From: Prevotella sp.
GTDB taxonomy: Bacteria; Bacteroidota; Bacteroidia; Bacteroidales; Bacteroidaceae
Assembly (NCBI GenBank): GCA_017462915.1
Contig: JAFTQG010000050.1
Location: 1-64,000, forward strand
Reading direction: 5' to 3'
Length of the DNA stretch: 64,000 nucleotides
The translations under genes and the position numbers were made by a program. The notes beneath the pieces were generated by a model. The model did no database searches, was not told where the DNA came from, and saw nothing but the letters and a program-made list of their open reading frames with translations. Below are positions 5,607 through 56,252 of this stretch, one piece after another (within the stretch, counting starts at the first letter, position 1; every line of letters begins with the position of its first letter).

Positions 5607-7115
5607 ATGAATAGAATAACGCCCTTTACAGTAACGGCCTTGCTCGTACTGCTCATGGTTTCCTGTTCCGAGAGCAGGAAACCATGGCGCATAGGTGTGT
5701 CCCAATGCAGTGAGGACATCTGGCGTCACAAGCAGAACGGCGAACTTATAATCGGCGGATATGTGGACAATGCCGTCGAACTCGAGTTTCTTTCTGCCGA
5801 TGACAGTGACGAACGGCAGATAGAGCAGATAAACCATTTCATAGAAGAGAAGGTGGATCTGCTTATCGTCGCCCCGAATTCCGCTGCCAGTCTTACACCT
5901 GTAATAGACAAGGCATACGACAGTGGCATACCTGTCATCCTCTTTGACCGCCGTACGAACAGCGACAAATACACGGCTTATATCAGTGCCGACAACTATG
6001 CCATAGGCAATACCATGGGCAAGCTCATTGCCCGCGACATGAAGGGCAAGGGCACTTTGGTTGAGATTACAGGTCTTAAAGGTTCTTCGCCGGCGAAAGA
6101 AAGGCATCGCGGCTTTGCCGATGCTATTGCTGAGTATCCGCAGATAAGGCTGATTTCCTCCGAACTCGGCGACTGGACGGAGGAGAGCGGCAGCAAGGCG
6201 ATGGCGGAGGTGTTGAAGCATGACAGGGATATCGACTGCATATTCGGCCATAACGACCGCCTTGCCCTTGGCGCAAGAAATGTTGCGCTGAAGCATGGAC
6301 TCAGAAACATAAAATATTACGGTGTGGATGCCCTTCCTGTTCCAGGAGGCGGTATAGAGCAAGTGCAGAAGGGCGTGTTCGAGGCAACGTATATCTATCC
6401 TACACAAGGTCTTGAGGTGATGCGCCTTGCACGCAAGATTCTCAACGGAGAGAAATATGAGCGTTACAACAAGCTGCATTCTTCGGTGGTCGACAAGTCC
6501 AATGCCGACCTCCTGCTGACACAGCATCGTGAGATGGAGCGTGTCGGCAACGACATCAAGACGATACATGCCAAGGTGGATGAGTATTTCACTCAAGTCA
6601 ATCTTCAGCAGAAGATAATCATCGGTTTCATCGTGGTTCTTGTCATTATCGTCACCCTGTGCGTACTGACATACCGCTTTTATATAGCCAAGGTCATGGT
6701 AAATGAAGAGGTGGCAAAGGAGGTCGTGTCGCCCATGGCAAGCATCCCCTCGCCCGAAACGTCTGGGAATGACAAGCAGGCAGTGCCGGTACCGAACACT
6801 TTCCTTGACCGTTTCCGCTCGATATTGCAGCAGAATCTTCAGGATGCCGACTTCAATGTTGAACGCATAGGCGAGGAGATGGGCATGAGCCGCGTGCAGC
6901 TCTACCGCAAGATAAAGGCCTTGACGGGCATGACTCCCGTGGAACTTCTCCGCAAGGCGCGTGTGGCGCGCGGTAAGCAGCTCCTTGAGTCAACAGACCG
7001 TTCCGTCTCGGAGATTGCCTACGATGTCGGATTCACAGCCCCTTCCTATTTCGCCAAATGCTTCAAGGACGAGTTCGGCATAAGTCCCGGGGAGTTTAGG
7101 GGAACGAATAAATAA
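5607..7115 (+). CDS. Membrane-spanning regulator: periplasmic sugar-binding domain + TM + AraC HTH
   Basis: From the ATG at 5607 the protein has 502 residues. Residues 1-20 are a signal/anchor sequence with a marginal lipobox ending at Cys20. Residues 27-300 are a ribose-binding/LacI-type periplasmic domain (NHFIEEKVDLLIVAPNSAAS, then the DRR motif near 114-116). One strong TM helix spans about 337-359 and an AraC-type double HTH lies at about 400-498 (IGEEMGMSRVQLYRKIKALT). No histidine kinase, ATPase or receiver domain lies between TM and HTH, unlike the hybrid two-component sensors such as BT1754 that sense fructose in Bacteroides. It is therefore predicted to be a one-component membrane-bound transcription factor. 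Its nearness to the fructan locus suggests that target, but an unrelated ATPase gene lies between. Upstream codons back to 5466 are repeat-derived, so the internal ATG was chosen. Confidence 0.85.
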   Translation: MNRITPFTVTALLVLLMVSCSESRKPWRIGVSQCSEDIWRHKQNGELIIGGYVDNAVELEFLSADDSDERQIEQINHFIEEKVDLLIVAPNSAASLTPVIDKAYDSGIPVILFDRRTNSDKYTAYISADNYAIGNTMGKLIARDMKGKGTLVEITGLKGSSPAKERHRGFADAIAEYPQIRLISSELGDWTEESGSKAMAEVLKHDRDIDCIFGHNDRLALGARNVALKHGLRNIKYYGVDALPVPGGGIEQVQKGVFEATYIYPTQGLEVMRLARKILNGEKYERYNKLHSSVVDKSNADLLLTQHREMERVGNDIKTIHAKVDEYFTQVNLQQKIIIGFIVVLVIIVTLCVLTYRFYIAKVMVNEEVAKEVVSPMASIPSPETSGNDKQAVPVPNTFLDRFRSILQQNLQDADFNVERIGEEMGMSRVQLYRKIKALTGMTPVELLRKARVARGKQLLESTDRSVSEIAYDVGFTAPSYFAKCFKDEFGISPGEFRGTNK

Positions 7116-52502: not shown

Positions 52503-55500
52503 ATGATTACAAAAGATAATTTTAAAGAACTCCTCCTTTCAATAGGATTTGAAAAAGTTTCTGTAGGCAACTTTTTCACAAAAAAATATTCTTCGTGTAG
52601 TATTCATGTGGATTTTGACAATGACAAGCTGGTATATCCAGAAGCGGAAGGATTGGTTGTTAATGACAAGACTACAAGCAATTTCTCACATAACGAGAAT
52701 TTTGTGGTCTTTGAATGTGTCTGTCGTTTGTTGGAAAAAGGATATCGCCCTGAGCATATTGAATTGGAGCCAAAATGGCAACTTGGACGTGATGCCAAAG
52801 GAGGCAAGGCTGACATCGTTGTTAAGGACGAGAAAGGAAACGTTCTGATTATTATCGAATGTAAGACCGCTGGAGCAGAATACAATAAAGAGGTAAAAAA
52901 TACTGAGGAATATGGTGGGCAGTTATTCAGTTATTGGCAGCAAGAAAATGCAACTCGGTGGTTGGCTCTATACGCATCCGATTTGAAAAATGGCGAGATA
53001 TTGGTAAAATCACAGGTCATCTCATGTTTGGATGATAAGAACATTGAGGCTATGGCCAAGAAGGACAGAGATGTCCTAATCTATCGTAACGCCAAAAACG
53101 ATTCAGAACGTTTTGAAGTATGGTGCGAAACATACAATAAGGCATGGATAGACAATCTTATTTTTGATGAGGAAAGCCAAGCATACAATATTGGTATTCC
53201 GCCATTGCGCAAACAGAAATTACGTGATTTTACTCCTGAAGATAGAATTGTAAATCGCTTCGAGGAAATATTGCGTCATAACAATGTGTCCGATAAGGAA
53301 AATGCCTTCAATAGATTAGTGGCACTCTTTATTTGTAAACTTGTGGATGAAATCAAGAAGCAAGATTTTGAGGAGGTAGAGTTTCAGTATAAGCAAGGTA
53401 CAGATACATACGAAAGCCTGCAAGACCGTCTGCAAAGATTGCACACACAGGGCATGGAGGAATTCATGAAAGAGAAAATCTTTTATGTCGAAGCTGACTA
53501 TGCTGAGCGATTGTTTGTGCAATATACTGGCCACAAGCGTAAACAGGCAATAGAAGAACTCAACAAGACGATTCGTATTTTGAAATTCTATTCCAATAAT
53601 GATTTCGCATTTAAAGATGTTCATAACGAAGAATTGTTCTTTCAGAACGGCAAAATCCTTGTCGAGGTAGTCCAGTTGTTCCAGCCTTATCGCATCGTAT
53701 ATCCAAGCAAACACCAATTCCTTGGCGACCTCTTTGAACAACTGCTCAACAAGGGATTCAAGCAAAACGAAGGACAGTTTTTCACTCCTATGCCCATTAC
53801 TCGTTTTATATGGGACAGTCTACCTTTACAAACCTACATATCTGACAATGGGCTGCCCAATGTCATTGACTATGCTTGCGGTGCTGGTCATTTTTTGACC
53901 GAAGCAGTAGAAGCGATAGACAAGGTTCGAAATGACATGGACAACTCTTGGGTGGAAAAGCACATTTATGGCGTAGAAAAGGACTATCGTCTTGCTCGTG
54001 TCTCCAAGATTTCTCTCTTCATGAATGGTGCTGGAGGAGCGAACATTGTCTTTGGCGATGGATTGGAAAACTATGCAGACAAAGGCATAGAAAGAGGCTC
54101 TTTTGATATTCTCGTCGCCAATCCACCTTACTCTGTTAGTGGATTCAAACAACATCTCAAACTGCGTAACAATACATTCCGCATACTTGATATTGTCACG
54201 AACGATGGCAAAGAAATAGAGACACTTTTTATAGAACGCATATCACAGCTTCTGCGTCCTCGTGGACTTGCAGCTGTCGTACTCCCGGCGTCTATACTCA
54301 GCAATTCGTCCGCAACCTATATGGCTGCACGTGAGGAGTTATTGCAAAATTTCTATATTCGAGCGATTGTAAGTTTCGGAAGCAAGACCTTTGGAGCAAC
54401 AGGAACCAATACTGTCACGCTTTTCCTTGAACGTTACAACGAGCCACCTCGCATTGCGGAGCTAACTAAAGATAGTATTGATGCCATAATGAGAGGTGAG
54501 ATTCTATCGGACTTTGTTGACAAGCAAATACTTGCGGATTATTTGCAACATCAGCATATCCAAGAAGAAGAGTACCTTCGCTTCACTCGTAAAGAGATGG
54601 ATTGGGAAAAACTATGTGGCAATAGCTATCTTAAAGTTTACACTGATGCCTTTGCACAAATGCCTATCTCTTTGCCCAAGAAATGTACGGCAGAAGAAGA
54701 GAAACAAATACGCAAAGAAAAGTTCTTTGAGTTCGCACTTGGTGTGGAACGTGACAAACTATACTATTTCTCATTAGCGAGAGAACAACGAACGCTCGTG
54801 ATAACATCTCCTGCGGACAATAAAGAGCAAAAGACTTTTCTTGGATATGACTGGAGCAACCGCAAGGGTGCAGAGGGCATTGTCATAAATAAGCCGGGTG
54901 GTATGCTATACAATCCCGATGATAGGTTTGCACGTGGCACTTTAGCATCTGCTATACGTAACTCTTTTATTGGAGGAGGAACAACGACTTCTTTGCCTGA
55001 AAGTCTCGAAAAATATGCCAAGACATATTGGCTGAAGGATATGATGGATTTCTCACGTGCAGAATTTGACAAAACTATTGCTACATCTGCAAAGACTGTC
55101 TCAACTTTCAGTAGTAACTTCCCAGTTCACTTACTAGTTGATTTGGTTAATATAAATGAGACTGAGCGTAATCCGAAACTTGAACCTGACAAAAAATTCA
55201 TCTATATTGATATAGCATCTGTAAGCAATGGAACTGGTGAGATATCACTGGACAATGAGATAATTGGTAACGAAGCTCCAAGTAGGGCTCGTAGATATGC
55301 TTTTGATGGTAGCGTACTCATATCAACAGTAAGACCTAATTTGAAAGCATTTGCGTATATAGATAAAGAAATACCTAATGCTGTTTATTCGACGGGATTT
55401 GCTGTGTTGCGTTCAAAAAACGAGAAAGTATTGATGAACAAATATCTTTATCTCATTTTTATGAATTTGGATGAACTGATGAACCAAATTATAGATAGAA

Positions 55501-56252
55501 TGCCCAAAGGTCAATATCCAAGCATTAACAAATCAGATATAGAAGGGCTTAAGATACCTCTTCCGCCTCTTTCCATCCAACAGCAAATCGTAAAAGAATG
55601 CGATACGGTTGATAGAGAATACAACACAAGTCGTATGACAATAGAGACGTATCGGAAGAAGATAAGTGACATCTTTGATAGACTTGAAGTTGTTAATAAA
55701 TCTAAAATGGGGGGGGTAATTCCGATTAGCGAAATCTGTGCATACGCTACAAAACGCATCTCATATGCTTCCATTGATGCAGATAATTACGTGACTACCG
55801 ATAATCTGTTGCAAAACTGCGAAGGTGTAGTGGTGTATGATAGCGTTCCTACGACAGACACTGTAGTAGAGTATCGTAAGGGAGATATTCTACTTTCCAA
55901 CATACGACCTTATCTGAAGAAAATATGGCTTGCAGACCATGATGGTGGTTGTAGTCCCGATGTTCTTGTGATTCGTCAAAAAAATAACAGCGTGCTTCCT
56001 GAATACCTCTATAATACGTTGTGTCGGCAGCAGTTCTTTGATTACGTTATGAAAGATATAAAAGGCATGAAAATGCCGCGAGGGAACAAAGACCATATTA
56101 TGAGATACCGTATTCCTATCATTGATGGAGAAACACAAAGATTCATTGTCGAAAAGGTTCAAGAATACGAAGCAATTATATACGAAGCCCAACAGATATT
56201 GAATTTATGTTCACAGCGTAAAAAAGACATACTACTTGGTTATCTTGATTGA
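52503..56252 (+). CDS. Single-chain restriction-modification-specificity protein (Type IIG / RMS fusion), phase-variable
   Basis: A 1249-residue protein joining all three functions. Residues about 1-190 are a PD-(D/E)xK nuclease of the HsdR-N type, with Asp104 in GGKADIVV and Glu119-Cys-Lys121 in LIIIECKT. Residues about 400-700 are an N6-adenine methyltransferase, with SAM motif IDYACGAGHF (455-464) and catalytic NPPY (540-543). The C-terminal ~370 residues hold two HsdS-like target-recognition halves separated by a helical segment (SIQQQIVKECDTVDREYNTS). A G8 tract at 55709-55716 lies just before the second half. Either G7 or G9 gives a stop within a few codons, cutting the protein near residue 1071-1074. 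The low GC suggests transfer. Confidence 0.88.
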   Translation: MITKDNFKELLLSIGFEKVSVGNFFTKKYSSCSIHVDFDNDKLVYPEAEGLVVNDKTTSNFSHNENFVVFECVCRLLEKGYRPEHIELEPKWQLGRDAKGGKADIVVKDEKGNVLIIIECKTAGAEYNKEVKNTEEYGGQLFSYWQQENATRWLALYASDLKNGEILVKSQVISCLDDKNIEAMAKKDRDVLIYRNAKNDSERFEVWCETYNKAWIDNLIFDEESQAYNIGIPPLRKQKLRDFTPEDRIVNRFEEILRHNNVSDKENAFNRLVALFICKLVDEIKKQDFEEVEFQYKQGTDTYESLQDRLQRLHTQGMEEFMKEKIFYVEADYAERLFVQYTGHKRKQAIEELNKTIRILKFYSNNDFAFKDVHNEELFFQNGKILVEVVQLFQPYRIVYPSKHQFLGDLFEQLLNKGFKQNEGQFFTPMPITRFIWDSLPLQTYISDNGLPNVIDYACGAGHFLTEAVEAIDKVRNDMDNSWVEKHIYGVEKDYRLARVSKISLFMNGAGGANIVFGDGLENYADKGIERGSFDILVANPPYSVSGFKQHLKLRNNTFRILDIVTNDGKEIETLFIERISQLLRPRGLAAVVLPASILSNSSATYMAAREELLQNFYIRAIVSFGSKTFGATGTNTVTLFLERYNEPPRIAELTKDSIDAIMRGEILSDFVDKQILADYLQHQHIQEEEYLRFTRKEMDWEKLCGNSYLKVYTDAFAQMPISLPKKCTAEEEKQIRKEKFFEFALGVERDKLYYFSLAREQRTLVITSPADNKEQKTFLGYDWSNRKGAEGIVINKPGGMLYNPDDRFARGTLASAIRNSFIGGGTTTSLPESLEKYAKTYWLKDMMDFSRAEFDKTIATSAKTVSTFSSNFPVHLLVDLVNINETERNPKLEPDKKFIYIDIASVSNGTGEISLDNEIIGNEAPSRARRYAFDGSVLISTVRPNLKAFAYIDKEIPNAVYSTGFAVLRSKNEKVLMNKYLYLIFMNLDELMNQIIDRMPKGQYPSINKSDIEGLKIPLPPLSIQQQIVKECDTVDREYNTSRMTIETYRKKISDIFDRLEVVNKSKMGGVIPISEICAYATKRISYASIDADNYVTTDNLLQNCEGVVVYDSVPTTDTVVEYRKGDILLSNIRPYLKKIWLADHDGGCSPDVLVIRQKNNSVLPEYLYNTLCRQQFFDYVMKDIKGMKMPRGNKDHIMRYRIPIIDGETQRFIVEKVQEYEAIIYEAQQILNLCSQRKKDILLGYLD
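55709..55716 (+). repeat. G8 homopolymer tract inside the RMS gene
   Basis: Eight consecutive G bases encode the end of Met1069, Gly-Gly and the start of Val. In this AT-rich gene such a run is conspicuous and is a typical slipped-strand phase-variation site. Confidence 0.85.

Follow-up and report, generated by a model that had tools for sequence, protein, structure and literature searches.

Background

Homopolymeric tracts have been described in several kinds of restriction-modification genes. In the Type I system NgoAV of Neisseria gonorrhoeae the halves of the specificity gene are separated by a poly-G tract whose length varies among strains. The gene occurs both truncated and fused, and the truncated HsdS recognises GCAN8TGC while the fused form recognises GCAN7STCA (PMC9577141). 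Here we describe a gene with a comparable layout in a 64,000-nucleotide stretch of DNA from Prevotella sp. (assembly GCA_017462915.1, contig JAFTQG010000050.1, positions 1 to 64,000), referred to below as the window. The gene, located at 52503..56252 on the forward strand, codes for a restriction-modification-specificity enzyme in a single chain and carries a tract of eight G (G8) between its two recognition halves. It very probably represents a phase-variable, single-chain Type IIB-like enzyme of the AloI/TstI type that forms two products through slippage of the G tract; we infer both the slippage within a strain and the kind of site that is read. The window gene and its clade share with NgoAV the position of the tract and the occurrence of both truncated and fused forms, whereas NgoAV is encoded by separate hsdM, hsdS and hsdR genes and its two specificities have been measured, while the window gene is known from sequence (PMC9577141).

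Single-chain enzymes switched by poly-G are represented by Cj0031, a Type IIG enzyme of Campylobacter jejuni, in which the tract lies at nucleotide 2573 of 3732 and is present in some alleles only. Cj0031 has been treated as an ON/OFF system and differs from the window enzyme in being TaqI/Eco57I-like, with one variable region (region IV) as target recognition domain (TRD) and not two Methylase_S halves (PMC4889913). The BcgI-like Type IIB systems HP1471/HP1472 and JHP1364/JHP1365 of Helicobacter pylori carry a poly-G tract (13/14 G) in the specificity gene, but they consist of separate restriction-modification (RM) and specificity (S) subunits (PMC3936762). In the H. pylori Type IIG genes JHP1272 and HP1353-HP1354 a recognition piece at the C-terminus is gained or lost by a frameshift at a second homopolymer, which alters the target. 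These enzymes are similar to TaqII/MmeI, and as described in the same source the added piece resembles part of their single TRD and is not a second half-site domain following a conserved helix (PMC3936762).

With regard to domain organisation, the window enzyme resembles TstI, a single-chain Type IIB enzyme of the AloI/TstI kind with 1251 amino acids comprising an endonuclease, a methylase and two-part recognition, although the cited account of AloI/TstI mentions no phase variation (PMC4027205). BsaXI, a Type IIB system of RM and S subunits, offers a truncation to its first recognition half that resembles the short phase of the window gene, but it is encoded by two genes and the truncation was engineered (PMC9159934, PMC11997821). 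As these accounts describe them, the ingredients are already known: poly-G tracts occur within a Type IIG gene and within the S gene of a Type IIB system, and in NgoAV one separates the halves of HsdS. Among the papers listed by a limited search of the open-licence literature in PMC, none described a one-chain enzyme whose complete halves are separated by a tract, and none a restriction gene of Prevotella or other Bacteroidota that is switched by a homopolymer. Type IIG genes are mentioned in the cited text of a methylome study of Prevotella intermedia, from which the word 'homopolymer' is absent (PMC5608340).

Results and discussion

Domain architecture of the enzyme

The open reading frame of the window gene is intact at G8 and codes for 1249 amino acids, of which residues 1-1248 are spanned by the PADLOC model REase_MTase_IIG (E=1.3e-297). 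An HSDR_N-like nuclease core at residues 78-134 (52734..52904, forward strand; Pfam HSDR_N_2, E=4.6e-6) contains D104 and E119-C-K121. It is followed by an N6-adenine methyltransferase domain at residues 404-648 (53712..54446, forward strand; Pfam N6_Mtase, E=2.4e-33), in which the motifs IDYACGAGHF and NPPY begin at residues 455 and 540, respectively. Two stretches of the protein matched Pfam Methylase_S, the best of them at residues 878-1040. The first recognition half, a TRD with its conserved region (TRD1-CR1), covers about residues 863-1068 (55089..55706, forward strand) and matched the S subunits 5ybb_D and 3okg_A, while the second half (TRD2-CR2), lost in the short phase, covers residues 1073-1249 (55719..56249, forward strand) and matched residues 13-189 of 7vru_C. 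Residues, motifs and the Pfam and PADLOC matches agree with the preliminary description of this DNA, in which a nuclease, a methyltransferase and two recognition halves had been read in one frame.

By sequence, the restriction and modification domains lie within one polypeptide as in Type IIG enzymes, and the chain runs from a nuclease at the N-terminus through the N6 methylase to TRD1-CR1-TRD2-CR2, as in the single-chain Type IIB enzymes. On the strength of this domain architecture, single-chain Type IIB (AloI/TstI-like) is the most fitting class for the predicted enzyme. The closest solved relative of its restriction-modification (R-M) part by sequence was BsaXI (8w0p_A, E=1.9e-37).

A G8 tract at the junction of the recognition halves

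The tract comprises exactly eight G at 55709..55716 (forward strand) and lies at the TRD1-CR1/TRD2 junction, the length and position given in the preliminary description; the same junction carries a tract in seven other loci. Its first G is the third base of the ATG codon 55707-55709. When the sequence was read in silico with seven G, the frame ran into a TAA (55717..55719, forward strand) directly after the tract and the product was 1071 amino acids, and with nine G it continued through GGT AAT TCC GAT to a TAG (55727..55729, forward strand), giving 1075 amino acids ending in GGGNSD. The earlier claim that loss or gain of one G stops the protein at once was therefore upheld. Ten G gave 1072 amino acids, and G8 and G11 are the read-through lengths of this gene. 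The tract is the sole run of at least seven G or C within the window. It is a homopolymer internal to an open reading frame whose change in length shortens the product, as in phase-variable genes, and as in NgoAV it separates the recognition halves such that a complete TRD-CR half stays in the shorter form.

Both shifted frames stopped no more than six codons after the tract in all eight loci, one within 0-2 codons and the other within 3-6. Among 7,689 in-frame positions taken as background, both frames stop within six codons at 11.9%. As the eight tract loci are related, this pattern is regarded as supportive only. Slipped-strand mispairing in the G tract would toggle the gene between a long and a short product. 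At G8 or G11, translation would yield the complete chain R-M-TRD1-CR1-TRD2-CR2, expected to read a two-part asymmetric site, while other lengths would end the chain directly after the first half, as R-M-TRD1-CR1.

Distribution of the tract among relatives

Relatives were collected as 25 loci from a contig search and from searches of 60, 398, 399, 45, 58 and 393 genomes, which were overlapping draws. Copies from the same genome were removed (L087, L088, L091, L103, L104, L105, L120 and L156), and the partial or broken relatives L007, L051, L052 and L056, which stop short of the junction or are interrupted, were left out of the clade. The clade of nineteen members consisted of eighteen well-supported R-M parts in the tree and L158, added after the tree was made, whose R-M part was 65% identical over residues 337-864. 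The junction could be scored in seventeen members, after exclusion of L033, whose frame ends at 998 amino acids near a contig end, and L106.

A tract was present at the junction in eight of the seventeen scorable members, which are non-redundant, from different species and include the window. Tract lengths were G8 in the window, L040 and L043, G9 in L032, L038 and L041, G10 in L037 and G12 in L089. The window and L041 had a full-length frame, and the other six were cut off at the tract. The same junction therefore carries tracts of 8 to 12 G with both phases among the relatives, which supports the proposal that slippage removes the second recognition half. The refuting outcome named in the preliminary description, an unvarying G8 tract, is not borne out across species, where lengths of 8, 9, 10 and 12 were counted. 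The eight junction tracts were the only G/C runs of at least six in 64,916 bp over eighteen clade genes, two of them partial. Tract presence or absence required at least four changes on the tree, and the tract has therefore been gained, lost or moved repeatedly.

Among more distant relatives, no G run of at least seven was found at the junction where contigs reached it, and a scan of viral contigs confirmed no relative. A Helicobacter locus matched in the methylase region (L054) has eleven G at 6408-6418, downstream of the matched stretch.

Constraint on the second half and exchange of the first

The second half remained open in the shifted frame for 175-186 codons in all six truncated copies. 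Nonsynonymous divergence (dN) of the second half was 0.155-0.22, with synonymous sites saturated in ten of the eleven pairs compared; these pairs were drawn from seven of the eight loci (without L089), and some include the two full-length copies. The low dN with saturated synonymous sites indicates that the second half is kept under constraint. The R-M-TRD1 parts before the tract were free of stops in all eight tract-bearing copies, each of which also had DYACGAGHF and NPPY and kept the nuclease (G)(K/R)AD and ECK residues.

Between the window enzyme and L032, the R-M parts were 88% identical, compared to 36% for TRD1-CR1 and 68% for TRD2-CR2, and the respective values for L037 and L043 were 86%, 36% and 74%. 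About four families of first halves were distinguished, namely window/L041/L043/L089 (49-71% identity), L037/L038 (75%), L032 and L040, and identity between these families was 25-41% where R-M parts were 60-88% identical. The second halves of the eight tract loci formed one family with 42-76% identity. First halves have been freely exchanged between species while the second half and the tract stay.

Within the clade, a tract was found in eight of the nine position-2 TRDs of the window family (at least 42% identity to the window) and in none of the eight other position-2 TRDs. That the tract simply travels with the TRD2 sequence was considered and rejected, since the same TRD family occurs in several contexts that lack a tract: at position 1 in L035, L036 and L039, at position 2 in L044 and in HsdS-sized frames. 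A scan for this family aligned 28 of 30 loci (L146 and L147 gave no alignment). The 26 aligned loci beyond the window and L127, the tract-bearing copy of genome G391, were a mix of HsdS-sized frames and single-chain enzymes, and none had a G run of at least six at the TRD start; a G6 run in L131 sits 350 nt upstream. A conserved operon partner was likewise rejected, as the upstream 541-aa gene was weakly matched in two of sixteen relatives (L033 and L039). The downstream AAA gene was matched in none of the sixteen, several of which have short flanks.

L106 (1501-4857) has its second half deleted and terminates downstream of CR1; beyond its stop codon there is a remnant similar to the tail of CR2. 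It is a possible natural, fixed half-S form.

Possible specificity of the truncated product

Engineered BsaXI provides a point of comparison for the short form. S.BsaXI (8w0p_C) matched the S part of the window protein weakly (phmmer, E=3e-4 for the chain), and in this match F1058 of the window protein aligned to F226 of S.BsaXI. The engineered BsaXI TRD1-CR1 has 233 amino acids, counted from the printed sequence, and ends seven residues past F226 (PMC9159934), and the G7 product of the window gene ends after residue 1071, 13 residues past F1058; the comparison of truncation points is one of sequence alignment and shares the weakness of the match in the S part. Together with RM, the engineered TRD1-CR1 cuts a new, palindromic site, AC N5 GT, instead of AC N5 CTCC (PMC9159934). 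It is plausible that an R-M-TRD1-CR1 chain is likewise active and has a palindromic target: a pair of these chains would again bring together two R-M parts and two recognition halves, as in BsaXI. We put the chances at about even that the short form is active, pairing two TRD1 halves and reading a palindromic site. A switch within one gene between two active specificities, an asymmetric two-part site for the long form and a palindrome for the short form, has not quite an even chance of being correct. With the first half exchanged and the second half and tract constant, each lineage would own its palindromic alternative.

Alternative explanations

Several points weigh against a slippage switch between two specificities, and these are considered with the explanations that they favour. 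A plain ON/OFF switch, in which R-M-TRD1-CR1 is inactive and slippage silences methylation and cutting together, is a serious possibility, though we would give it somewhat less than an even chance. Cj0031 is switched on at G9 and off at G10, and the joint loss of both activities was predicted to be less toxic (PMC4889913). TstI assembles as a homotetramer in which every chain holds both halves, with one S region per R-M chain (PMC4027205), unlike the (RM)2S arrangement of BsaXI, and pairing of half-S regions may fail in a one-chain enzyme where it succeeds with the separate subunits of BsaXI. A new specificity would also leave host sites unmethylated and exposed to the enzyme's own nuclease. 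However, a complete TRD1-CR1 half remains in the short form of the window gene, the short phase was found in six of the eight tract-bearing copies, and truncation is compatible with activity both in BsaXI, where TRD1-CR1 alone is active with RM (PMC9159934), and in NgoAV (PMC9577141). A change of target is judged at least as likely as plain ON/OFF switching, because the short form would end near the active engineered BsaXI truncation (PMC9159934).

The source genome (2.93 Mb, 59 contigs) was scanned on both strands for G/C runs of at least eight, and 37 overlapping matches to GGGGGGGG merged into 23 runs, compared to 25.3 expected from the dinucleotides of the window. Tracts of eight G are near the short end of those prone to slip, and the junction lacks a tract in nine of the seventeen scorable relatives (L034, L035, L036, L039, L042, L044, L045, L090 and L158). 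A single G8 is thus unsurprising by chance, and the case therefore rests on the relatives. A chance run that hardly slips, with truncated relatives that are decaying pseudogenes, nevertheless seems very improbable given that the same junction is affected in eight loci with no other G/C run of at least six in 64.9 kb, that the second halves in truncated copies are open and constrained and that the R-M-TRD1 parts contain no other stops. Lengths were compared across species with one genome per species, and nineteen of the 25 loci from the contig search, including all six with a tract, are labelled as metagenome-assembled genomes, in which homopolymer length is less sure. Homopolymers are error-prone, so that the lengths in draft relatives could be assembly or sequencing errors, but we consider this most unlikely since the recurring tract occupies a single site, the copy in the window keeps its frame and the two full-length copies differ in length (G8 and G9). 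Homopolymer lengths of 8-10 are, moreover, usually readable. Programmed ribosomal or transcriptional slippage, by which either allele would yield both products at a fixed ratio with no heritable switching, could also make use of a homopolymer that is soon followed by stops in the two other frames. There is little chance that this is the case, as the length varies across species, unlike a programmed site, and G runs are weaker sites of transcriptional slippage than A/T runs.

Other homopolymer runs

A run of nine or ten A at the methylase/TRD1 junction in a sister clade is a second candidate slip site. It is located at 4086-4094 in L097 and 3423 in L111 (forward strand) and at 4089 in L098 and 2931 in L107 on the gene strand, and it also occurs in L163, L165, L168, L169, L172 and L179. 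Among closely related R-M parts, joined by tree branches of 0.02-0.07, A10 (L107 and L111) reads through whereas A9 (L097 and L098) stops at once, and the A9 stop would divide the sister-clade enzyme into an R-M and an S piece. L003, which belongs to this sister group, is full-length and lacks the A run. In other places the in-frame length is A9, and lysine-rich coding could also explain the A run.

In the source genome, five Acyl_transf_3 genes have G/C runs of 8-9 inside the frame or at its start (G000 C12:36280, C12:59919, C26:63770, C26:66143 and C26:69747; L062, L065, L072, L074 and L075). The frame of a polysaccharide pyruvyl transferase (PS_pyruv_trans, L063) begins beside a G9 run at G000 C12:38342-38350 and matches its Pfam profile from position 63 on, resembling an out-of-phase copy. 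The longest run of the genome, twelve C at G000 C16:64572-64583 (L066), lies close to where an open frame of 302 aa begins; the expected number of runs of at least twelve is about 0.06. Six run-associated frames were checked against Pfam. Surface-sugar genes are classic contingency loci, and the Acyl_transf_3 genes with runs are likely to be surface-glycan contingency loci. The presence of runs of at least eight in the five Acyl_transf_3 genes and one PS_pyruv_trans gene suggests that the organism, which its relatives mark as a Prevotella-like member of Bacteroidales, uses tract slippage more widely, though runs are in total no more numerous than chance predicts.

Conclusions

If this reading is right, Type IIG genes that are annotated as 'frameshifted' in these genomes may be alleles in the short phase and not broken genes. 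If the proposed switch is correct, tract-driven switching of specificity would extend from Type I systems such as NgoAV to one-chain Type IIB-like enzymes, and the lineage-specific palindromic alternatives would be a natural counterpart of the engineered BsaXI truncation. The switch would consist of a single gene and would be open to laboratory study as one piece. Members of this group of gut and rumen bacteria would then be able to switch their genome-wide methylation and their barrier to phages and plasmids by a one-base slip in a single gene.

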